Notes under the pieces: generated by a model
What the model was told of the DNA's origin: nothing
Database searches by the model: none
The model's input: only the letters and a program-made list of their open reading frames with translations
Position numbers and translations under genes: made by a program
Origin: an uncultured Clostridia bacterium
Lineage (GTDB): Bacteria > Bacillota > Clostridia > Lachnospirales > Lachnospiraceae
Reading direction: 5' to 3'
Length of the DNA: 64,000 nucleotides
Assembly (NCBI GenBank): GCA_947643415.1
Contig: CANRWA010000017.1
Span: 1 to 64,000, forward strand
Shown: positions 7,507-19,486 of the stretch, one piece after another
Layout of the letters: each line of letters opens with the position of its first letter
Position numbering within the stretch: position 1 is the stretch's first letter

Positions 7507-7899
7507 ATGGGTCAGGTTTATGAGGGGAAATGTCCACTCTGTGATTATGAACAGCAGTTTTTTCTGGGTGGCGGTATGATGAGCGTGAATTTGGAAATGA
7601 GTGCAGGAGTGCTGCCCGAAGATGAACAGGCGGTTTTGAGGCAAATGAAAGAACGTCAGGAGATTGCCCGTTTTAATGTGGAGAATTTTATCGTGGAGTG
7701 TCCGGAATGCCATAAAATAACAGGAAAGACAATTATTGAAGTCGCAGGAAAGGATGGCAGACGCCATATTTTTGGCGAGCACTGTGATTCCTGCGGAAAA
7801 AGGCTCAGGATTCATTGGAACAATACAGAGGAAGAGTTAAAGTGCCCAAAGTGCCAGGAAGGAATCTTACTATTTGGGGAAGCTGGACTTTGGGACTAG
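7507..7899 (+). CDS. Small protein with two zinc ribbons, unknown function
   Basis: This 130-residue soluble protein has three CxxC pairs near the N terminus (CPLCDY), the middle (CPECHK) and the C terminus (CDSCGK, CPKCQE), enough for two zinc-binding knuckles. No membrane segment or signal peptide is present. It is divergently transcribed from the SPFH operon, which also encodes several zinc ribbons, so a shared process is possible but unproven. The ribosome site is AGGGGGC about 10 bases upstream. I do not recognise a named family. Confidence 0.7.
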   Translation: MGQVYEGKCPLCDYEQQFFLGGGMMSVNLEMSAGVLPEDEQAVLRQMKERQEIARFNVENFIVECPECHKITGKTIIEVAGKDGRRHIFGEHCDSCGKRLRIHWNNTEEELKCPKCQEGILLFGEAGLWD

Positions 7900-8152: not shown

Positions 8153-8179
8153 TAAGTTTTTTGAAGAAACAGCCGATAT
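8153..8179 (+). promoter_or_regulatory. Sigma-28 (SigD/FliA) promoter of the flagellin genes
   Basis: -35 TAAG (8153-8156), exactly 15 bases, -10 GCCGATAT (8172-8179). The sigma-28 consensus is TAAA-N15-GCCGATAA. It lies 79 bases before the first flagellin ATG and is the only such site noticed before either flagellin gene. Confidence 0.85.
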
Positions 8180-8258
8180 AATCTATATAGTATATAATTT
8201 GCAGGAAAAAGCAATGCAGGGAAGCAGCACATAAATTATTTATCAGGGAGGATAAGAG

Positions 8259-10328
8259 ATGATCATTTCACATAATATTCTGGCTATGAATGCCAACAGA
8301 AATCTTGGGATAACAGAGGGTGATCTGCAGAAGAGCACCCGTAAACTTGCGTCCGGGTATCGTGTCACAATGGCAGCTGATGATGCTGCAGGCCTTTCGA
8401 TCAGTGAAAAAATGCGTGCACAGGTACGTGGGCTGAAACGCGCTTCAGAGAATGCACAGGATGGGATTTCACTGCTGCAGGTGGCGGATGGGGCATTGGG
8501 TGAAGTTCAGGCGCTGCTGCAGCGTATGAGGGAATTGTCAGTGCAGGGGGCAAATGATGCTGTCAATAATGTAGAGGACCGTGATGCGATCCAGAAAGAG
8601 ATCGACGAATTGACAGAAGAGTTAGACCATGTGGCGAAAGCGACAGAATTTAACAAAAAGACATTGTTAGATGGCTCTTGGGCGAATCCTGCCGGCCGTG
8701 CTGCACAGCCGATTTATTTCAGCATGGGTGATGGAGAGGGTGGCTTGTGGCTTGAGAATTCCCTTCAGGCATTGAATGGCGAAAAGGCCGGAACACAGAT
8801 GACGATGCAGGAAGCAATGCAGTCAGATGGCTTGAAGATCATTTATACCGAGATTGAGAATGACTTTGAGACCATTCAGACGGCGAATGGATCGCCGACG
8901 GCAAGCGGTTATGCCAATCTAAAGAGTACTTTGGAGAAAGAGATTGTTCCACAGGCAGTCAAATCATTGCTGGCAGCATTTCCAAGTACGTTTAATTATC
9001 TGGAGAGTTCTTCCATTGGAATTGGGCTGAAACTGGTTAATCAGCCAAGCAGTTCAACTCTGGCATCCGTAGGGATCGGATATCTGAGTTATAGTGATGG
9101 CACTCTGGTAAAAGATCAGTTTTCCTATACGTTGACTGTAAATATGGGGCATCTGGATATGGATGCCTCCGGGAATATTGCATCTAATCCAAATTCCTCG
9201 AAAGGGCGGGAGGCGCTGGAGACAACGATTGTCCATGAGATGATGCATGCCCTGATGGATGAGGCACTGACCAATGGCATGATCGGAGCTTATGATGGCA
9301 AAAAGAACCCATCTTATGGATTCCCTGGCTGGTTTGTGGAGGGAATGGCACAGACAGCAGCAGGTGGGTGCAGCCCATATAATGACTGGGTAAATGGCGG
9401 GCTTGGCATAACAGCAGGTGTATCAGAAGCTGCTATATCAGCAGCAGTAAAGAAAGGGAGTAATTCCCTGACGAGCGGCACAACTGCTTCTAAGTATGGA
9501 ACAGGATATCTGGCAAGCATGTATCTTGGATATCTGGCAGGCGGTGCTGGCACGGTGAGTGAGAATGGCATTGCAGGCGGTTTGGATAAGATGCTTTCAC
9601 AGATGAGAGCGGGGAAGAGCCTGGATGACGTCATAAAGGAAAATACTTCTTATGCAGGTGTTCTAGATTTTGAGAAGAAATTTGGGGACAGTGCATCCAG
9701 CGCTTTTATCAAAGAGCTGGTAACGACGGTTGGTGCTGGTAATGGGGGTCTTGCCGGTGGGAGTTTTGCCAGCACAGATCTTCTGCCGGATACGGCACAT
9801 ACTACAAATTTATTTAAACTGAATACCACAAATGACACGGTGATGAATAAATATCCAGCAGGCGTAGATAAACTTACTGACGGGGGAAGCGGCGGTAATA
9901 CAAAAGGTGGATCAGGCGGCGCCGGAGGCAGTGGAGATGGCCTCTGGTTCCAGATTGGCGCCAATGATGGGCAGGGGATTACCGTATACATAGATAATAT
10001 GGATGCAGATGCCCTTGGGATCAGGGATCTTTCCGTAGCAGACCATGAAGTGGCAGGGGATGCCATCAATGCGCTGGATAATGCACTGAGAGAAGTGTCA
10101 CGTCAGCGGTCGCTGATCGGTGCCTATCACAACCGTCTGGAATATTCTGTTCGGAATGCGGATAATAGTGCAGAAAATATGCAGGCAGCAGAGAGCCGCA
10201 TCCGTGATACGGATATGGCAGAAGAGATGACAAGATACAGTAAGTCGCAGATCCTGCTGCAGGCAGGCCAGTCCATGCTGGCACAGGCAGCCCATGGAAC
10301 AGAAAGCGTTCTGCAGTTGCTAGGATAA
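8259..10328 (+). CDS. Flagellin with zinc-metalloprotease insert (flagellinolysin type)
   Basis: Residues 1-140 and about 560-689 are normal flagellin D0/D1 halves (IISHNILAMNANRNLG start, LLQAGQSMLAQA end). The surface domain between them holds a gluzincin-like protease: HEMMH at 326-330 supplies two histidine ligands and the catalytic Glu327, and Glu361 in WFVEGMA is the likely third ligand. This matches the described flagellinolysin family, in which the filament itself is proteolytic. A Gly-rich linker (residues 541-561) joins the enzyme to the C-terminal half. The 689-residue length is large for flagellin. GGGAGG precedes the ATG, and transcription is from the sigma-28 site at 8153. Activity is inferred from intact ligands. 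Confidence 0.9.
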   Translation: MIISHNILAMNANRNLGITEGDLQKSTRKLASGYRVTMAADDAAGLSISEKMRAQVRGLKRASENAQDGISLLQVADGALGEVQALLQRMRELSVQGANDAVNNVEDRDAIQKEIDELTEELDHVAKATEFNKKTLLDGSWANPAGRAAQPIYFSMGDGEGGLWLENSLQALNGEKAGTQMTMQEAMQSDGLKIIYTEIENDFETIQTANGSPTASGYANLKSTLEKEIVPQAVKSLLAAFPSTFNYLESSSIGIGLKLVNQPSSSTLASVGIGYLSYSDGTLVKDQFSYTLTVNMGHLDMDASGNIASNPNSSKGREALETTIVHEMMHALMDEALTNGMIGAYDGKKNPSYGFPGWFVEGMAQTAAGGCSPYNDWVNGGLGITAGVSEAAISAAVKKGSNSLTSGTTASKYGTGYLASMYLGYLAGGAGTVSENGIAGGLDKMLSQMRAGKSLDDVIKENTSYAGVLDFEKKFGDSASSAFIKELVTTVGAGNGGLAGGSFASTDLLPDTAHTTNLFKLNTTNDTVMNKYPAGVDKLTDGGSGGNTKGGSGGAGGSGDGLWFQIGANDGQGITVYIDNMDADALGIRDLSVADHEVAGDAINALDNALREVSRQRSLIGAYHNRLEYSVRNADNSAENMQAAESRIRDTDMAEEMTRYSKSQILLQAGQSMLAQAAHGTESVLQLLG

Positions 10329-10374: not shown

Positions 10375-13300
10375 ATGATTATTCAGCATAACTTAGCCGC
10401 GCAGAATGTGATGACTCAATTTGGCATTACCAATGATAATTTAAAGAAAGCCACAGAGAGGCTTTCTTCTGGATATAAGATTAACCGTGCTGCAGATAAT
10501 CCGGCAGCATTGGCGATATCGGAGAAAAAGCGTGCCCAGATACGTGGCTTGAACCGTGCTGCGAAAAACGCAGAGGATGGGATCAGTTTTGTGCAGACCG
10601 GCGATGGCGCTATGAGCCAGACCGGCGCGCTGCTTCACCGGATGAGGGAACTCGCTGTTCAGGCACTGAATGACGGAGTATTGCAGCGGGACGACCAGGC
10701 GGCGCTGCAGATGGAATTTGACCAATTGCAGAGTGAGATCGATCGGGTCAATGACCAGACGGAATTCAATAAAAAGATGGTGTTTGAGCACTATGCAGAT
10801 AATTATTCTGTGATAGAAGGAAACCGGGTATGGAGCCAGAACCAGTTACATAATATTGACAGTTCAAACTCATCCCTGACTGTGAAATACATCACAGTGG
10901 CAGAGGATGGCACAGAGACAGAAAAAGAAACGACACTTACAATCCCCGAAGGGAGATATACCACACAGGAACTGATGGACGAGATGGATGATGTGGTAAC
11001 TGCCCTGGAAGAGGAGGCAGATGGGTTATATCTGGAATATACAGATGGACATACATGCAATATGGTGCTGCAGGATGGAAAAGAGATCAAAGATGTATCC
11101 GGTGGGCTTTCCTACCTGTTCTTTGATTCTTTTGGGGGCAATACATCGGGGGCGCTTATTGGTACCACCATCTTTTATCCCGGAAACCCATTAATGGTAA
11201 AGGCAGGAAAAAATGATGAACTGCATTTCCGGATCGAATTCTTTGATGGTACTTCGAAAGATATTGATATTACGGTGGCTGAGGATGGTTATACCCAGAC
11301 AGACATGATCAAATATCTGAATGAATATACCCTTGCTGATGGAAAGAAACTTAAGGATTATGGAATGGAGGCCAAACCATACGGAAGTGCATCCATTCAG
11401 ATCGGCGGAGATACTGGCCTGATCACCGGGCTGAAAGGAAATATGTTTGAAATTGACACGGAGCATTATGATTCGGTGTTTTATGATAATGTGAAGTATG
11501 GTTCTGTAACGGAAGTACCAGCGATATTCACCGGTGCAGATGTCCTGAACAGGCAGGATCTGTATCATTCTAAATTTAATATTACAAGTGGAGTGAATGA
11601 TACACTAAAGATACGGGTAGATGGAGGAAATTGGGAGGAGATCAAGCTGGATGCTGGCAGCTATGATATTGAGGGCCTGAATGGAATGGTGGAAGAGCTT
11701 CAGAAGAAACTGGATGCGAAAAACCTTGGCATAACAGTGTCCTCCCATAATGTAAGCGGAGTAAAAGCCCCCAATGGAAATATTCACACCTTTTATGGTC
11801 TCACGCTGACCGGAAGCACCATCGGGAAGGGAGGCAAGATTGAGTTTGATGTGCCGAACAGCAGTGCTTATGAGACGCTATTTGTCAAAAGGAAATACAC
11901 AGATATAGGTGTATCCCATACATCGGTTTCGGGTTTGTGGAGCTATAGCGGATCTGCTTATGTGACCGGCGGCAGGATCTTTGATGTCTCTTCTGATTTT
12001 CCGATAACTTTCAGTAAGGATAAGAATAATAATTCATTTACGCTGGATGTAACAGAACAGGGTAAGTCAGCTCAGAAGAAAACCATTGAACTGAATGGTA
12101 CATATGGGGATATGACTGACCTCATCAAGGCAGTTCAGGAACAGATTGATAATGCCGGCTACAAAGGTAAGATTGAGGTTTCTCCCTATGGGAGCCGGAT
12201 ACGGTTGTCAGCGGCACCAGGGAATGAAACAGTTGCGAAGGTCAATGTGGCAAAAAACAGCACAGATGGGTATAATGTGCTGTTTGTGGGGGAGACCATT
12301 TCGTGGCCTGCTGTGACAGAGACTGCCTTACAGCCGATCAAACCGGGGGCAGATGGTAAGATTGTATTTACGGATGCGAATAATAAGCTGACGGTTGATG
12401 TGGGAGCCGAGACCCGGACTGTTATCATTCCTCCGGGAAGTTATACGCCAGAGAAGTTAGAGGAGATCTTGAATGGTCCGGACAGTGCCTTGAAAGGAAA
12501 GGACAATGAAGGTGAGAATTCACACTCAGCGTATAATGTCAGCGGAAGCACTGTCAGTGTATCAACGCCCCAGCCGGCAAAAGATGAACCATTTAAGAAT
12601 ACGACAGTACCAGGAACCGGTGGAAAAGGAGATGGGTCTACACAGGTTAAGGATGGAACGGCAGCGACCCATACACTGGGTGGGACGCTTCCGGCAACTA
12701 CTGTGATAACTGCAGGCGTTAATGATAAGTTTTCCATTAATGTGAACGGGAAAACATATGACATTACGCTAGATAAGAAAAATGGTGGTTATAGCCAAAG
12801 TGCTCTGGCAGCACATCTTCAGGACAAAATAAATGCAGCGGCATCTGGGGCGAATCAGGTAAAAGTCACTGTATCAGGAGGCCACCTGAAATTTGAGACT
12901 GTCTCCAAAGGGAAAGAGATGTCGATTACGACAGATGGATGTAATTCTACTTTTCTGTCAAGCATTAATACAAATAAGACAAAGGCTTATACAACGACGG
13001 GATCATTTCCATCAAATTTGTTTCCCTTTACATTGGGTTCAACCAATAATAAATTTACGATTAAAATAGATGGGAAGGATACGTCAGTAACACTCCCATC
13101 AAGCCCAGCGGGTAAAACAGCCTATGAGAGCATAACTGATATTAAGAATGAATTGAACACATTACTGACTCCGAAAGGGGTTACGGTATCTACATATGGC
13201 AGCGGACTGAAATTTGAGAGGGCTACGGCAGGGTCAGGAAGTGTCAGCCTGGATTCGAATAATAGTGGAACAGCAGGCGCATTTCTGTTTAAAACGCCGG

Positions 13301-15306
13301 CGACATCCACTATGAGCCCAATTACGATACCAAAGAAAGTGGGTACAAAGGATGGTACGGTAAAATATTCTGTGACACTGGGAGGCAAAACATATACTGC
13401 TACTCTTACCAATACATCGACAACAGATACAAAGGCGTATACAGCGGCACAACTGAAGACAGCATTAGATGGCGCAGTGTGGAAAGATGATACAGGAGCA
13501 GTTAAAAAACCGTCTGACCTGGGTTTTACCACTTCGGTGGTGGGAAGCCAGATCCGTTTTACTACCACGGCAAGGGGGAGCGGACAGACGATCCGTGCAG
13601 GGGCAAAGTCAGGACCGATCATAACTACTACACCGACGATTGAGGCTGTTGTTAAGAAGAATTCAGATGGGACGATTAGTGTTGGCCTGAAATCCAAATC
13701 CTATTTCACCCCAAGGCCATATAATAAGGCTGCTGTGCTGCAGCCCAAGGGAAGTACGTCAACGGTAGCGCCCCCAACAACAAATACACGGAATTTTACT
13801 ACCAGAAAATATAAGCTGACGACCCGGAGGCCGATTTCATTGCCGGCTTCTGTCAACATAACAGAGGAAAATAAGAACCTGAACTTTACGTATCGGTATC
13901 ATGATGGGACAGAGAGAGAAATTAAGATTGAATTGGATGCGGGCAGTTATACCAGGGCGCAGTTACAGCAGGCGCTGCAGGCAAAACTGGATGCTGCCAT
14001 AGAGGGTGATGCGGTACCGCCCCGTCCGGGAGAGGGCCCGAAGGTTACCGTGGGGAACCAGATTACGTTGGAATCAAAATCGGATGGGCGTTACAATATC
14101 ATTAACCTCAATGGAGGTTTTTATGAACAGGTGATGAAGGGAACAGAGACCCGTTCGAAAAATGAAAGAGCAATAAACAGCGATGGGCATCTGGTAGTGG
14201 ATGATGTATATATTGCCGGGCGGAAAGATATCAGGAATAAGAGTACCCGGATCGAAAAGGGTGAGAACGATGAACTGACCATGGATATTACCATCAATGG
14301 TAATGTAACGACACTGCAGATGACGCTGGATTCTGGGACATACAGTTCTGACAGCCTGGTGAAACATATCCAGAAGAAGCTGGCAGAGCAGCTCAAGGCA
14401 AATAATCTTCCTGAGAATATGGTTCTGGCAGGTGTTGGTGTATTTGACAGTGGGGTAGAGGGGACCGATGACAAGAATTCATTATTCTTCTATCTTAATA
14501 AAAAACTAGAACTGGAACCTGGTACTTATGGCATTGACCATCTGGGCGGCAAGGCGCTGTTCAGTATCTTTTATAAAACAGATGGGGATCCGATCCCTGC
14601 TTATATAGCAGGAACGAAAGACATTTCAGATGGCGCAGAAGTGAAAGCAGGTGAAAATAAATTTTCTGTTGAGGTAGATGGCAAACCGTATGATTTTGAG
14701 ATTAAGCCGGGTGTATATAAGACAGCAGAAGCTTTGGCGGACGCAGTGGATGCTGCCCTTAAGGAAGTTCCGGATTCCTGCCTGAAGGCAGGGCTGTCAG
14801 GAAATTCCCTGAAGATCAGTTATACAAAGCTGGGAGAACATAAGATTGGTAATATACAGGGACCAATGAAGATGTCAGTATTTTATAAATCAACGGGACG
14901 TTATGATGAAGAGGTGGATGAATGGCTTCAGATTGGTGCCAATGATGGCCAGGGTGTAGAGTTGAAGAGATTCAGTGTGAGTACATTGAGTATGGGGATC
15001 AATTCTATTGCTATTTCCCAGCCCAAATATGCCAATAAGGCGCTTAACCGGATTGATGATGCACTGAAATACCTGAGTTCCAGACGGAGCCTGTATGGGG
15101 CATTGGAGAACCGCCTTGAATATGCGGTTAAGGTGGATGAGATCACGGCAGAGAACACGCAGAGTTCAGAATCCTTAGACCGGGATGCAGATATGGCATC
15201 GGAGATGGTACAGTATGCCAAAGCAAATATCTTGCAGCAGGTGGGATTGAGTATATTGAGCCAGGCGAATCAGAGTACTCAGTCAGTACTCTCGCTGCTG
15301 GGTTAA
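10375..15306 (+). CDS. Giant modular flagellin (1643 residues)
   Basis: The first 140 residues (IIQHNLAAQNVMTQFG) and the last 130 (residues about 1515-1643) are typical flagellin D0/D1 helices. The region between is about 1370 residues, several times the usual variable domain. It consists of roughly ten diverged beta-rich modules of 90-130 residues with the pattern 'ND.l.i.vdG....i.l..G.Y....l...lq..l', like flagellin-IN-type repeats. No HExxH motif is present. The protein re-enters D1 with QIGANDGQG, as does the neighbouring flagellin. It lies 46 bases after that gene with no terminator between, so it is probably co-transcribed. The frame is open throughout, so it is a real gene rather than a chimera. 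Confidence 0.9.
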   Translation: MIIQHNLAAQNVMTQFGITNDNLKKATERLSSGYKINRAADNPAALAISEKKRAQIRGLNRAAKNAEDGISFVQTGDGAMSQTGALLHRMRELAVQALNDGVLQRDDQAALQMEFDQLQSEIDRVNDQTEFNKKMVFEHYADNYSVIEGNRVWSQNQLHNIDSSNSSLTVKYITVAEDGTETEKETTLTIPEGRYTTQELMDEMDDVVTALEEEADGLYLEYTDGHTCNMVLQDGKEIKDVSGGLSYLFFDSFGGNTSGALIGTTIFYPGNPLMVKAGKNDELHFRIEFFDGTSKDIDITVAEDGYTQTDMIKYLNEYTLADGKKLKDYGMEAKPYGSASIQIGGDTGLITGLKGNMFEIDTEHYDSVFYDNVKYGSVTEVPAIFTGADVLNRQDLYHSKFNITSGVNDTLKIRVDGGNWEEIKLDAGSYDIEGLNGMVEELQKKLDAKNLGITVSSHNVSGVKAPNGNIHTFYGLTLTGSTIGKGGKIEFDVPNSSAYETLFVKRKYTDIGVSHTSVSGLWSYSGSAYVTGGRIFDVSSDFPITFSKDKNNNSFTLDVTEQGKSAQKKTIELNGTYGDMTDLIKAVQEQIDNAGYKGKIEVSPYGSRIRLSAAPGNETVAKVNVAKNSTDGYNVLFVGETISWPAVTETALQPIKPGADGKIVFTDANNKLTVDVGAETRTVIIPPGSYTPEKLEEILNGPDSALKGKDNEGENSHSAYNVSGSTVSVSTPQPAKDEPFKNTTVPGTGGKGDGSTQVKDGTAATHTLGGTLPATTVITAGVNDKFSINVNGKTYDITLDKKNGGYSQSALAAHLQDKINAAASGANQVKVTVSGGHLKFETVSKGKEMSITTDGCNSTFLSSINTNKTKAYTTTGSFPSNLFPFTLGSTNNKFTIKIDGKDTSVTLPSSPAGKTAYESITDIKNELNTLLTPKGVTVSTYGSGLKFERATAGSGSVSLDSNNSGTAGAFLFKTPATSTMSPITIPKKVGTKDGTVKYSVTLGGKTYTATLTNTSTTDTKAYTAAQLKTALDGAVWKDDTGAVKKPSDLGFTTSVVGSQIRFTTTARGSGQTIRAGAKSGPIITTTPTIEAVVKKNSDGTISVGLKSKSYFTPRPYNKAAVLQPKGSTSTVAPPTTNTRNFTTRKYKLTTRRPISLPASVNITEENKNLNFTYRYHDGTEREIKIELDAGSYTRAQLQQALQAKLDAAIEGDAVPPRPGEGPKVTVGNQITLESKSDGRYNIINLNGGFYEQVMKGTETRSKNERAINSDGHLVVDDVYIAGRKDIRNKSTRIEKGENDELTMDITINGNVTTLQMTLDSGTYSSDSLVKHIQKKLAEQLKANNLPENMVLAGVGVFDSGVEGTDDKNSLFFYLNKKLELEPGTYGIDHLGGKALFSIFYKTDGDPIPAYIAGTKDISDGAEVKAGENKFSVEVDGKPYDFEIKPGVYKTAEALADAVDAALKEVPDSCLKAGLSGNSLKISYTKLGEHKIGNIQGPMKMSVFYKSTGRYDEEVDEWLQIGANDGQGVELKRFSVSTLSMGINSIAISQPKYANKALNRIDDALKYLSSRRSLYGALENRLEYAVKVDEITAENTQSSESLDRDADMASEMVQYAKANILQQVGLSILSQANQSTQSVLSLLG
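10861..14889 (+). repeat. Diverged modules of the giant flagellin surface region
   Basis: Protein-level repeats, not DNA repeats. Module starts are recognisable near residues 165, 274, 401, 545, 655, 775, 884, 983, 1155, 1291 and 1421. Each shows a short strand pair with a (V/I)(D/N)G turn, an acidic 'G-x-Y' turn, an amphipathic helix and a final strand pair. Divergence between modules shows old duplication with little recent recombination. Confidence 0.65.
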
Positions 15307-15335
15307 AGAAAAAGAGAATGGATTAGTAAAAAGGG

Positions 15336-15373
15336 AAAATGGTGCCAGGAAGGGGATTCCGGCACCATTTTTG
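15336..15373 (+). terminator. Rho-independent terminator of the flagellin operon
   Basis: AAAATGGTGCC (15336-15346) pairs with GGCACCATTTT (15361-15371), with an inner GGAA/TTCC pair, ending in a T-run. It begins 30 bases after the giant flagellin stop codon. Confidence 0.9.
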
Positions 15374-15387
15374 ATGAATCGTTTTTT

Positions 15388-15421
15388 GTGCGGAGCGAAG
15401 AATCGCCATAGGCGATTCTTC
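15388..15421 (+). repeat. Dispersed hairpin repeat, copy A
   Basis: The element reads GTGCGGAGCG followed by a perfect 10-bp stem AAGAATCGCC-ATA-GGCGATTCTT (15398-15420). Related copies lie at 23643-23710 and 56303-56375, all on the plus strand. This copy runs into the stop codon of the convergent kinase gene (15420-15422). Confidence 0.75.
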
Positions 15422-17468
15422 AGAGGGGGAATGATACCACAACCTTAAACAAGTCTCCGTCAATAAAGATAGTAAGAGTTCCGTTCATGGATTCTGCCAA
15501 GCTGCGGGCAATGGACAATCCAAGGCCATTTCCTTCCGTATTCCGGGAGACATCACCCCGTACAAACCGTTCCATCAGATCCTCCCCTGAAAAATTCAGT
15601 GCGTACCGGGAGATATTCCGGAAAATGATATGGACAGTGTTTTCTTCTGTTTCCAGATTTATATATACTCTGGTACCAGGCTGGGCATACTTACAGATAT
15701 TATTCATCAAATTGTCAAAGATCCGCCAGAGGTGGCGGTTATCCGCCTGTATGGCTGCAGAGGTTTCGGATTCCTGGATTACCAGGTCAAGCTGGCTGGA
15801 TTGAAGTTTTTCCTCAAATTCACCAACGATCTGTGTCAGCAGGATCTGGATATTACAGGCCTCCATATTGACCACCAGGTTTCCGGTGGATGCCTTGGAG
15901 GCATCCATGAGATCCTCAATGAGTTTCTTTAACCGGGCAGCCTGCCGTTCTAAGACAGACAGATACTCATTCCGTTCCTTTTCTGAGATATCCTTTTTCT
16001 GCAGAAGGTCCACATAATTGATCAGTGAGGTCAGTGGTGTCTTAATGTCATGGGAGACATTTGTGATCAGTTCTGTCTTAAAGCGTTCACTTTTCAGACG
16101 TTCTTCCAATGCTATGGACATGCCGTCGCAGATCTGGTTCAGGTATTCTCCATGCTTTCGGAATTCAGAAAACATATAATGCGTATCTATTTTATTTTCC
16201 AGATCCCCGCCTGCCATCTGCCGGCTGCCGTCCTGAAGCCGTTTCATCTGGATCAGCAGGGTGAATGCCAGTGGAATCCCAATGAGTTTAGAAAACAGCC
16301 AGATCATAAAGATGCCTTCCTTATTGTCAAAAGAAAGGATCACCACCAGTTCCAGAAAACTGATGACTGCTATTATGATACTGCTTTTGAACAACAGGGA
16401 TGTATTGTCTGCACACGTTCTTTGCAGATGGTGCATTCTTTGGCGGATGTGCCGGAGGATCTTATGCATACAGGATAGCAGGGCATGTGTGAAAGTATAT
16501 TTCCAAAGGATGCCAGCCTGATGGCGGACGGTGAGGTTCATTAAAAGAAAAATAAAAGAAAGGATGCCGGCCGCCGTCAAAAGAACACACAAAATGCCTG
16601 TGAGGCCAAGGGAGATATCCCCGGACCGTAGAATCTCCAGCAGGCTGAAAACCAGACTTCCGCAGATGCAGGTGACTCCCAGGTTGAAACAGAGATTGAG
16701 TACCAGAGGGGTCTTGTGCCGCCATTTGGCAGGAGAAGTTTCATTCCCGGTGCTATTCCCTGCGTTGTAACAGCAAAAGCTGGTAAATAACAGGCAGAGC
16801 ACGATGAGAAACGCTGACAACAGGATTCCTGAATAGCGGAAATTATAAAGAAAGGTAAGCAGTTTCTCCTGCTGGGCAAAAATATCATTACTGGCATTAT
16901 TAATGGGATTCTTTACATTGGAGATGATCCAATAGACAGAACCTGGTTTTGGTTCATCTCCATTATATAAGAAACAAGTCTCATAGAAGGACTTCAGGCT
17001 TTCCAGAAGCTTTGGGGTAGCCCCTGCGCCGGGAGTATTGCCTTCCACAAAGGCGATCTGGTAACTGCCCGGACCGGGACTGGTATCCTCGAAGTTCTGA
17101 TATATATAAGAGTCCTTCGATGAAAGGTCAATATCATCAAGAGAGTCTGCATGGATGATCCCAAACTCAAAGTTGTCAGTATGGAGATAGTTTTTCAGTT
17201 CTGTACGGACTGTCTGGAAATTTTTTGCAATATAGCCGGCTTCTTCCTTATGCGGGATTTTTTCTGTTTTAGAAAATATTTTAGCAGAATACCAGGCCTG
17301 CATATTTTGCGCCTGCTGTGATATCACAGTATCCGGTGATTTCTGATACAGTCCCATATCCAGGGTAAATACTATGGTGAACAATATGGCAGCCGCAGCT
17401 GTCCCGGTAAGGACTGCCAGGAATACAGCGGTACACCTTGCCGCAAAAGATTTTTTTATTTTATTCAA
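15420..17468 (-). CDS. Membrane sensor histidine kinase
   Basis: This 682-residue kinase has an N-terminal span (about 11-36), a sensor region to about 210, then several further spans (about 212-233, 255-280, 288-312, 362-380 and 386-408). A HAMP-like linker, a HisKA domain with SHDIKTP (His473) and a C-terminal HATPase domain (NGLGLSIA) follow. It starts at a TTG at 17468 whose GGAGGG site overlaps the last codons of the upstream regulator gene, implying translational coupling. The partner is the OmpR-type regulator at 17471-18157. Multiple spans without a known sensor domain resemble antibiotic- or envelope-sensing kinases; the signal is unknown. Confidence 0.88.
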   Translation of the reverse strand: MNKIKKSFAARCTAVFLAVLTGTAAAAILFTIVFTLDMGLYQKSPDTVISQQAQNMQAWYSAKIFSKTEKIPHKEEAGYIAKNFQTVRTELKNYLHTDNFEFGIIHADSLDDIDLSSKDSYIYQNFEDTSPGPGSYQIAFVEGNTPGAGATPKLLESLKSFYETCFLYNGDEPKPGSVYWIISNVKNPINNASNDIFAQQEKLLTFLYNFRYSGILLSAFLIVLCLLFTSFCCYNAGNSTGNETSPAKWRHKTPLVLNLCFNLGVTCICGSLVFSLLEILRSGDISLGLTGILCVLLTAAGILSFIFLLMNLTVRHQAGILWKYTFTHALLSCMHKILRHIRQRMHHLQRTCADNTSLLFKSSIIIAVISFLELVVILSFDNKEGIFMIWLFSKLIGIPLAFTLLIQMKRLQDGSRQMAGGDLENKIDTHYMFSEFRKHGEYLNQICDGMSIALEERLKSERFKTELITNVSHDIKTPLTSLINYVDLLQKKDISEKERNEYLSVLERQAARLKKLIEDLMDASKASTGNLVVNMEACNIQILLTQIVGEFEEKLQSSQLDLVIQESETSAAIQADNRHLWRIFDNLMNNICKYAQPGTRVYINLETEENTVHIIFRNISRYALNFSGEDLMERFVRGDVSRNTEGNGLGLSIARSLAESMNGTLTIFIDGDLFKVVVSFPL

Positions 17469-17470
17469 AT

Positions 17471-18157
17471 TTATCCCTCCATTTTATAACCCCTTCCCCA
17501 GACTGCTTTCAGATAGCGTGGGTCAGCGGGATTATATTCTAGTTTTTCCCGTAAGTGGCGGATATGTACGGCAACAGTATTTTCATTCCCCAGGGGATTG
17601 TCGCGCCAGACATTCTGGTATATTTCCTTTGGGGAGAAAACCTCATCCGGATGCTGCATCAGGAACCACAGGATATTATATTCGATCTTTGTCAGGGAGA
17701 CGGGTTCTCCATCCAGTGATACTTCCTTTGATTTGTCATTTATGGAAATGCCGCCAATGGTGCGTATATGGGTCTGCGGCTGCCCGCCGCCCAACTGCAT
17801 ATACCGCCGCAGTTGGGATCTGACGCGCGCCTGCAGTTCAACCGGGTTGAAAGGTTTTGTTATATAGTCATCTGCTCCCACCGTAAGACCGAGAACTTTA
17901 TCGGTATCCTCACCTTTCGCAGTCAGGAGGATCACGGGCACATTGCTGTGCTTTCGGAGTTCGGTCATGGCTGCTATGCCATCCAGTTCCGGCATCATAA
18001 TGTCCATCAGTACAAGGTGGATCTCTGCCTCACTCATGATCGCAAGGGCTTCCCTGCCATTATACGCTTTATAGATCTTATAACCATCTGCCTGCAGATA
18101 GATTTCCAACGCAGATACAATATCCTTTTCATCGTCACATACAAGAATATGATACAT
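17471..18157 (-). CDS. OmpR-family response regulator
   Basis: The 228-residue protein has a receiver domain (DDEKD start, phospho-acceptor Asp52 in LVLMDIMMPELDG, Lys in TKPFNP) and a winged-helix DNA-binding domain (HIRHLREKLEYNP). It is first in a two-gene operon with the kinase 2 bases downstream. GGAGGG precedes the ATG. Transcription is from the promoter at 18212-18240, with a perfect palindrome (18177-18193) in the leader. Confidence 0.93.
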   Translation of the reverse strand: MYHILVCDDEKDIVSALEIYLQADGYKIYKAYNGREALAIMSEAEIHLVLMDIMMPELDGIAAMTELRKHSNVPVILLTAKGEDTDKVLGLTVGADDYITKPFNPVELQARVRSQLRRYMQLGGGQPQTHIRTIGGISINDKSKEVSLDGEPVSLTKIEYNILWFLMQHPDEVFSPKEIYQNVWRDNPLGNENTVAVHIRHLREKLEYNPADPRYLKAVWGRGYKMEG

Positions 18158-18176
18158 TGTTTCCCTCCGGAGCCTG

Positions 18177-18193
18177 CCCCTGTCAGACAGGGG
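18177..18193. promoter_or_regulatory. Palindrome in the regulator leader
   Basis: CCCCTGTC-A-GACAGGGG is a perfect 8-bp inverted repeat between the promoter and the ribosome site of the response-regulator gene. It may be an operator or a leader hairpin. Confidence 0.5.
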
Positions 18194-18211
18194 ATTGTAA
18201 TTACATAAATT

Positions 18212-18240
18212 ATTATAGGGAAACAGAGATTAAAATTCAA
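18212..18240 (-). promoter_or_regulatory. Sigma-A promoter of the regulator-kinase operon
   Basis: On the minus strand: -35 TTGAAT (18240-18235), 17-base spacer, -10 TATAAT (18217-18212), about 55 bases before the start at 18157. Confidence 0.7.
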
Positions 18241-18286
18241 TGAGGAAGGTGATTAAGAATTGTTTAAATTTATGTTTCTGTACTAC

Positions 18287-18315
18287 TTGTCAAGAAGTAA
18301 AAAATATATTAAAAT
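18287..18315 (+). promoter_or_regulatory. Promoter of cheC
   Basis: -35 TTGTCA (18287-18292), 17-base spacer, -10 TAAAAT (18310-18315), about 50 bases before the cheC ATG. No sigma-28 motif was seen here. Confidence 0.6.
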
Positions 18316-18367
18316 GAAGATAGATTTTATGTAACTTTTTATCACTTATATAATTTTGGAGGATTTG

Positions 18368-18988
18368 ATGAGTAATTATTCTTTAGTGGAAATTAATGAG
18401 AGATATGTAGATGTTCTTCGTGAAATTGGTAATATAGGGGCGGGAAATGCTACTACGGCCATCGCTTCAATGCTTTCGATACGTGTAGATATGAATGTGC
18501 CAAAGGTGGAACTGCTGGAAGTCTCAAAGCTGGGGGCATGTATCTGTCCGGAAGATGAGATCATCGTTGGCATCTTTCTTGAACTTCAACTGGATATTGA
18601 GGGCAGCATGATGTTTTTAATGAGAATGGATTCCGCTCATTATCTTGTGAATAAGCTTATGATGAGGGATGAATCATATAATGAGGATTTTGATGAAATG
18701 GACCTGTCGGCATTGAAGGAGATTGGGAATATCATTGCCGGGTCCTATCTGTCAGCATTGTCTGGCCTGACCAATCTGTCTATTTCACCGTCGGTACCAT
18801 ATCTTTCAGTGGATATGGCTGCCTCGCTGCTCAGTGTTCCGGCAATCGAGTTTGGGCAGTATGGGGATCATGCCCTGTTGATTGAGACAGAATTTGGGGA
18901 TGATGTCATGATCAATGGCTACTTTATTCTTATGCCGGACCAGGGATCTTACGATAAAATATTAAAAGGATTAGGATTTGAGATGTAG
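18368..18988 (+). CDS. cheC: CheC-family CheY-P phosphatase
   Basis: This 206-residue protein has the duplicated CheC active-site pattern: LREIGNIGAGNATTA near residues 17-31 and LKEIGNIIAGSYLSAL near residue 120, each with the Glu and Asn used for CheY-P dephosphorylation. It works with CheD, encoded 12 bases downstream, in chemotaxis adaptation. The start is set at ATG 18368 with GGAGG just upstream rather than the earlier in-frame TTG (18356). It stands apart from a full chemotaxis operon. Confidence 0.9.
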   Translation: MSNYSLVEINERYVDVLREIGNIGAGNATTAIASMLSIRVDMNVPKVELLEVSKLGACICPEDEIIVGIFLELQLDIEGSMMFLMRMDSAHYLVNKLMMRDESYNEDFDEMDLSALKEIGNIIAGSYLSALSGLTNLSISPSVPYLSVDMAASLLSVPAIEFGQYGDHALLIETEFGDDVMINGYFILMPDQGSYDKILKGLGFEM

Positions 18989-19000
18989 AGGTAATGAAGA

Positions 19001-19486
19001 ATGGGCAATAATATAATGGTAGGAATGGCAGATCTGAATATTGGAAGAGGGACTAATGTATTGACAACAGTAGGACTTGGTTCATGTATTGGTCTGACGC
19101 TTTATGATCCGGTAACAAAGATAGGCGGATTAGTTCATTATATGTTACCAGACAGTAAAGCGGTATCAAATAACAGCAATATTGCGAAGTTTTGTGATAC
19201 TGGCGTACAGGAACTTCTGAAACGGGTGACGATGGCAGGAGCCAACAGAGGCCGGCTGGTTGCTAAGATAGCAGGCGGTGCGAAGATGTTTGCGGTCACC
19301 CAGGAATCAAGTGTGGGAAGTGTAGGGGAGAGAAATGCTGTTGCCGCAAAGCAGATCCTGCGTCAATTGAATATCCGGCTGGTGGCGGAAGATACCGGAT
19401 TGAACTTTGGGCGTACCGTGGAGCTGCACTGTGATACAGGGGATTTTTACATCAAAGCAGTGAAGAAACCAGTTAAGATTATATGA
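19001..19486 (+). CDS. cheD: CheD chemoreceptor glutamine deamidase
   Basis: The 161-residue protein carries the CheD catalytic pattern: Cys29 in GLGSCIGL, His46 in GGLVHYML and a Thr near residue 22-23. CheD deamidates chemoreceptor glutamines and stimulates CheC, encoded just upstream. Spacing of 12 bases and GAGGT before the ATG fit one operon. Length is normal for the family. Confidence 0.93.
   Translation: MGNNIMVGMADLNIGRGTNVLTTVGLGSCIGLTLYDPVTKIGGLVHYMLPDSKAVSNNSNIAKFCDTGVQELLKRVTMAGANRGRLVAKIAGGAKMFAVTQESSVGSVGERNAVAAKQILRQLNIRLVAEDTGLNFGRTVELHCDTGDFYIKAVKKPVKII

Follow-up and report, generated by a model that had tools for sequence, protein, structure and literature searches.

How does a bacterium come to carry a flagellin about six times as long as its ordinary one, and what could such a protein do? 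The question is raised by a gene at 10375..15306 in a 64,000-nucleotide stretch (the window) of contig CANRWA010000017.1, from an uncultured Clostridia bacterium of the Lachnospiraceae; its genome is G000 below, and other genomes and loci carry G and L handles. The gene, which like its modules, the flagellinolysin gene and the promoter and terminator candidates described below lies on the forward strand, starts with ATG and runs without an internal stop for 1643 residues (177 kDa, pI 5.5), against the 272 residues of the ordinary flagellin. A first-pass annotation had described it as a giant flagellin in one open frame, and length, coordinates and strand agree exactly. The reading that we hold to be probable, with some reserve, is that of a giant surface flagellin: a chain of modules decorating filaments made mainly of the 272-residue flagellin, with a flagellinolysin as its partner.

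An array of modules between flagellin ends

Both ends of the protein are those of a normal flagellin, as annotated. The D0/D1 N-terminal part (10381..10791, residues 3–139) matches Flagellin_N with E 3.7e-36, and the D1/D0 C-terminal part (15046..15300, residues 1558–1642) matches Flagellin_C with E 9.8e-18. With these ends, more than 1000 residues and a large central insert, the protein has the features by which giant flagellins are recognized (Thomson, 2018). For the centre of approximately 1370 residues, Pfam and NCBIfam give no family at a meaningful score, the NCBIfam matches covering the ends only.

Is this centre built of repeats? A BLAST comparison of the protein with itself detects none. 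We compared 25 overlapping windows of 110 residues by hhalign, profile to profile, with the whole profile of an 11-sequence alignment (the window protein and ten relatives). Off-diagonal matches appear at 90–96% probability for 12 of the 25, and the best control with reversed columns reaches 6.5%. A module hidden Markov model (HMM) then resolves eleven diverged modules of 88–116 residues each, at E 4e-10 to 5e-22. The annotation's array of about ten diverged, beta-rich modules is thus right in its repeats and their beta-rich character, and wrong in the number. At E ≤ 10 the controls (13 reversed sequences, 13 shuffled ones and two long non-flagellin open reading frames, ORFs) give the HMM no match, nor do the other window ORFs of at least 200 residues. 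The window's own modules sit in the seed of the HMM, and the independent test is given by relatives outside the seed, which carry 8 to 11 modules each when counted at E < 0.01: eleven in L072, L017, L066, L064 and L063, ten in L065 (with an eleventh at E 0.1), nine in L069 (with a tenth at E 0.02) and eight in L068, L070 and L071. Searched through the whole of G000, the module profile returns the window's eleven and one weak match elsewhere (E 0.029).

Along the gene, a feature at 10846..11130 lies between the N-terminal part and module M2 (11188..11490), which is acidic and conserved. M3 (11566..11895) and M4 (11995..12291) precede the middle modules, whose number varies across genera: M5 (12352..12615), M6 (12691..12957), M7 (13021..13293) and M8 (13327..13605, net charge +7). 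A linker of 78 residues between M8 and M9 (13606..13839) has a net charge of +12 and a low predicted local distance difference test score (pLDDT). It is followed by a feature at 13840..14118, by M10 (14239..14586), the best conserved of the C-side modules, and by M11 (14629..14898).

Structure prediction makes each module a single continuous domain, with a fold of the type seen in Flagellin_IN, FliD D2–D3 and flagellin D2, and with FliD and flagellin D2 as the top flagellar fold matches. Flagellin_IN (PF07196) is the commonest domain in the central regions of flagellins, with 3286 cases in Table 1 of PMC5595980; the fold predicted here is like it and like FliD D2–D3, the difference being that eleven diverged copies stand in a row. 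The annotation's "flagellin-IN-like" modules hold good in these fold matches, and also in a 50%-identical relative in G014, where PF07196 scores above the Pfam gathering threshold (24.9 bits against a cut-off of 22.7). Among 62 single modules, 6 match PF07196 at E ≤ 0.1 (best 6.1e-6), yet 7 match Adeno_Penton_B (best 8.7e-5). Against PDB sequences the module profile places P. aeruginosa FliD at the top (E 0.0027), and the next matches, from E 0.0045 upwards, are viral capsid proteins; with capsids so close behind FliD, the sequence evidence alone is weak. The modules also align with structures of the adenovirus penton and the phage sheath, and there are matches to proteins of Paramecium bursaria Chlorella virus (PBCV). 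We rejected kinship with any of these and read the likeness as a shared common fold, the penton and sheath matches hinting at a fold widespread among surface proteins.

Relatives, fixed ends and a variable middle

The annotation had suggested a search of Lachnospiraceae genomes for such arrays, and the same array is indeed found in others. A direct search finds the giant in 12 of 37 genomes of the genus, G000 included. Besides G000, seven copies are whole (47–64% identical to the window protein), one is truncated where its contig stops (G005) and three are frameshifted (G004, G021 and G032); the same search finds no whole-length giant in 24 genomes from other families of the order. In wider samples the giant is present in 10 of 299 genomes across the family (again counting G000), in 4 of 295 across the order, one of them from another family (G551), and in G000 alone among 398 across the phylum. 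A second collection holds 13 loci with named records, from metagenome-assembled genomes (MAGs) and isolates that are called Lachnospiraceae, Roseburia, Lachnoclostridium or Eubacterium or are unassigned. L067, on the same contig as L038, is left out of the counts, and L031 and G359 are one genome.

These relatives bear on another alternative: that the long frame is an artefact of misassembly, which the annotation had itself named as fatal to its reading, or a decaying gene. The three frameshift-broken copies among the twelve would fit such a view. Against it, the window copy and the seven whole relatives are single open frames under purifying selection and belong to one clade. Because these seven keep the entire protein in one frame in separate genomes, and further relatives do so as well, we rule out misassembly or decay of the window copy and give an artefact next to no chance.

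In a tree built from the D0/D1 parts only (FastTree, 43 rows), 19 of 20 giants form one clade with support 0.991. The remaining one, L069 (5710-10269), has the same array, and its D0/D1 parts group beside flagellinolysin-type flagellins, away from the other giants, suggesting that core and surface parts have been exchanged. From the single clade and its outlier we therefore read the giants as an old, separate lineage with patchy presence and at least one apparent exchange of the core. G551, a member of a different family in the order, has two proteins of this kind: L119, with eleven modules, and L120, a partial frame with six.

Some relatives have the frame split in two. In two rabbit-named MAGs with 96% identical DNA (L034:3190-8047 and L036:5968-10831) the split falls at a run of eight Gs, the sole G run of seven or more in either locus. 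After the tract there are no stops over more than 1230 codons, and the ratio of nonsynonymous to synonymous substitution rates (dN/dS) is 0.27, compared with 0.14 before it and 0.008 in a neighbouring gene; the split may reflect phase variation or a recent loss, or come from an error in assembly. In a third relative (L033:4878-9795) a purine-rich run near residue 180 marks the break between two frames.

The arrays of ten relatives share a common plan. Their first three and last three modules best match M1–M3 and M9–M11 in all ten, and the fourth best matches M4 in nine (that of L070 prefers M6). Between these fixed ends lie one module in L068, L070 and L071, three in L069 and four in the others. 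Identity to L031 is 86% in the N-terminal D0/D1 part, 83% in M1, 78% in M2, 49–62% in M4–M9 and 79% in M10, and identity to L038–L040 goes down to 14–32% in the middle. Recent tandem duplication was rejected because modules are closer to the same position in other genera than to each other; M5–M8, not reliably distinguishable in distant genera, are exempt from this statement. The middle also differs in composition from the base (M1, M2, M10 and M11). In 20 of 21 giants, several of them close relatives of one another, it is less acidic (means of −0.1 and −8.1 charges per 100 residues) and richer in Ser/Thr (means of 25% and 14%). A conserved base, a changeable tip and this charge pattern fit a chain that runs out and back, a geometry that we infer.

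Two other readings of the variable middle have to be considered. Flagellin central regions are usually hypervariable and act as surface antigens, according to the accessible part of PMC7018530, and the insert could be an immune decoy or hypervariable antigen that has become large through lack of constraint. The dN/dS ratios are 0.02–0.16 across all seven regions in three close pairs, by which measure the insert is under purifying selection, and length and module order are conserved across genera. On these grounds the hypervariable decoy was rejected, and we regard it as very unlikely. A putative adhesin, whose outer modules would bind host or dietary glycans or mucin on the base as a stalk, is a possibility that we hold only tentatively. 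The matches counted in its favour are at noise level, a basic middle is not common to all giants (in 11 of 21 the middle has no net positive charge), and the modules have no known lectin fold.

Companion flagellins and the flagellinolysin-type gene upstream

What share of the filament would such a protein make up? The genome has seven Flagellin_N matches, one of which is FlgL, and at least two compact flagellins of approximately 270 residues. The codon adaptation index (CAI) of the 272-residue flagellin, 0.841, is the highest measured, the mean of 22 ORFs of ribosomal operons being 0.785. Among the 41 window genes the flagellinolysin gene ranks fourth (0.692) and the giant twelfth (0.666). This contrast suggests that the 272-residue flagellin is the main filament protein, with the giant, on our reading, a minor or conditional subunit.

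Alternatively, the giant could build a homopolymeric thick filament of its own, as in Bermanella, to swim in viscous surroundings, with a switch between it and the small flagellins. There is a precedent: thick filaments of at least 30 nm are reported for B. marisrubri and O. marinus in the available part of PMC6248924, PMC8931119 in its accessible part links outer-domain sheaths with viscous habitats, and volume arithmetic gives a giant homopolymer a width of 31–52 nm, an assumption-laden figure that depends on the packing chosen. However, the marine pair has no other flagellin, whereas here compact flagellins are present, one with the top CAI, and the codon usage of the giant is ordinary. We therefore consider a filament of giants alone rather unlikely, and prefer a giant that decorates filaments of the 272-residue protein.

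The partner that we propose for it lies directly upstream, on the same strand and 46 bp away, at 8259..10328; the annotation had noted neither this gene nor the variable middle nor the codon-usage contrast. Its product of 689 residues has Flagellin_N and Flagellin_C ends and a zinc-binding HExxH motif at residue 326 (HEMMH, codons at 9234..9248). NF033876 is its best match after generic flagellins (E 4.2e-52), and we call it flagellinolysin-type because its 177.9 bits fall under the curated cut-off of 205. HEMMH is followed by a WF-EG motif, whose Glu would be the third zinc ligand by analogy with the flagellinolysin described in the accessible part of PMC5595980 (Eckhard et al., 2017). The upstream protein is like that flagellinolysin in its flagellin ends and HExxH and differs in being paired with a giant, a pairing of which the available part of that paper makes no mention. 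The same gene order and orientation recur in L030, L031 and L035 and, in another genus, in L070 (gaps of 27, 56, 28 and 29 bp). Of the 24 loci whose upstream sequence is available, 5 thus show the pairing, in two genera. The partner in L070 passes the curated cut-off and is not grouped with the flagellinolysins of the window's genus on D0/D1, and the pairing may therefore have arisen twice. The partner in G335 scores above the cut-off, with 208.1 bits.

A candidate sigma-28/SigD-like promoter lies at 8153..8180, 106 bp upstream of the flagellinolysin gene, judged against the SigD consensus. After the giant gene, a candidate terminator at 15335..15372 consists of a strong hairpin (16-bp stem, −22.5 kcal/mol, z −5.1, none of 200 shuffles equally stable) and a T run. 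A simple terminator scan lists none between the two genes, and it does not list this hairpin either.

Other observations concern the surroundings. An ORF of 130 residues upstream of the flagellinolysin gene (7507-7899) is 54–59% identical in L030, L031 and L035 and has weak, zinc-ribbon-like Pfam matches. Directly downstream of the giant, the stretch 15420-19486 encodes a histidine kinase with a response regulator, on the opposite strand, and then CheC and CheD. Flagellinolysin matches in other genomes include unusually long frames of 1094, 961 and 989 residues (G337:C22, G114:C21 and G157:C202; L091, L092 and L094), and the match in G091 contains a TAG.

A proposed decorated filament and the place of the protein among giant flagellins

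The surface-flagellin reading can be set out as follows. The D0/D1 ends would, to judge from their families, allow the giant to assemble into the flagellar filament, and the central 1370 residues are modelled as a chain of eleven Flagellin_IN-like domains that most likely extends away from the filament and then returns to it. Close to the core, M1–M4 and M9–M11 would make up an acidic, conserved base; M5–M8 with the basic linker would be an outer tip of changeable module number. The giant is probably co-transcribed with the preceding flagellinolysin gene as a late flagellar unit, and its product is probably placed, in minor amounts or under certain conditions, on filaments mainly of the 272-residue flagellin. 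It would give these filaments a thick or bristly coat beside protease-bearing subunits, likely of use where the cell touches or crosses mucus or other surfaces.

Several results weigh against this account. The predicted template modelling score (pTM) of the giant is 0.28–0.29, so the relative arrangement of the modules is not predicted. PF07196 has no match at E ≤ 1 in the window protein and none in G000 either. L119 is the exception to both compositional trends, its middle being as acidic as its base. An adjoining flagellinolysin is missing at 19 of 24 giant loci, and the co-occurrence of the two genes is weak: of 39 genomes in the genus, 6 have a flagellinolysin, 13 a giant and 4 both (P 0.08), and of 299 in the family the numbers are 10, 10 and 2 (P 0.04), with genomes that are not independent. 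The genus count uses a thirteenth giant (G359), seen outside the direct giant search, and that search did not cover G358. The SigD-like pattern occurs at chance level across the window (5 found, 5.95 expected), and stands upstream of 5 of the 33 genes examined; the flagellinolysins of L030, L031 and L035 have no such site in front of them.

A more elaborate version, which we think improbable, has a two-part coat, in which giant and proteolytic flagellins made from one transcript would be assembled next to each other. The giant would serve as a spacer arm, measured out in modules, by which surfaces such as mucin are held or presented to the adjacent protease. How far it reaches would depend on how many middle modules it has and, in some species, on a switch through slippage at the intragenic G tract.

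How does this family compare with known giants? The annotation had placed giant flagellins in a few marine gamma-proteobacteria only, which is not borne out by the available part of PMC6248924: giants of more than 1000 residues are reported there from several phyla, the firmicute Eubacterium plexicaudatum being named, and its protein may be a member of the family described here. The Bermanella and Oleibacter giants, as described in that part of the paper, share with ours the D0/D1 ends, the length above 1000 residues and a large insert with internal repeats. They differ in having two DE regions and a DX insert and in being the sole flagellin, whereas here there are eleven modules, other flagellins and an adjoining flagellinolysin. 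A separate origin from the marine giants, as the annotation had supposed, fits the restriction to one order in the genomes sampled. Extra outer domains could form a surface sheath here as in the outer-domain-sheath flagellins (Kreutzberger et al., 2022; PMC8931119), which, in the accessible part of that article, have three outer domains per subunit against the eleven predicted here. The open-licence literature, outside which most subscription journals lie, yielded no Lachnospiraceae array, no design of fixed ends and variable middle, and no flagellinolysin pairing. Giant flagellins as such are already published; the module array, its design and the protease partner are apparently new, and we regard them as a new variant.

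Lachnospiraceae flagellins have already been studied for host immunity. The available part of PMC6248924 leaves open how tandem outer domains fold in a flagellin whose chain goes out and back, and what giant flagellins are for. This lineage makes the folding question testable: its proteins form a series of 8, 10 and 11 modules in which the ends stay fixed, the middle differs in module count, and the modules are predicted to be separate continuous domains. Composite filaments, too, would become open to study, since a structural giant here probably shares one unit with an enzymatic flagellin.
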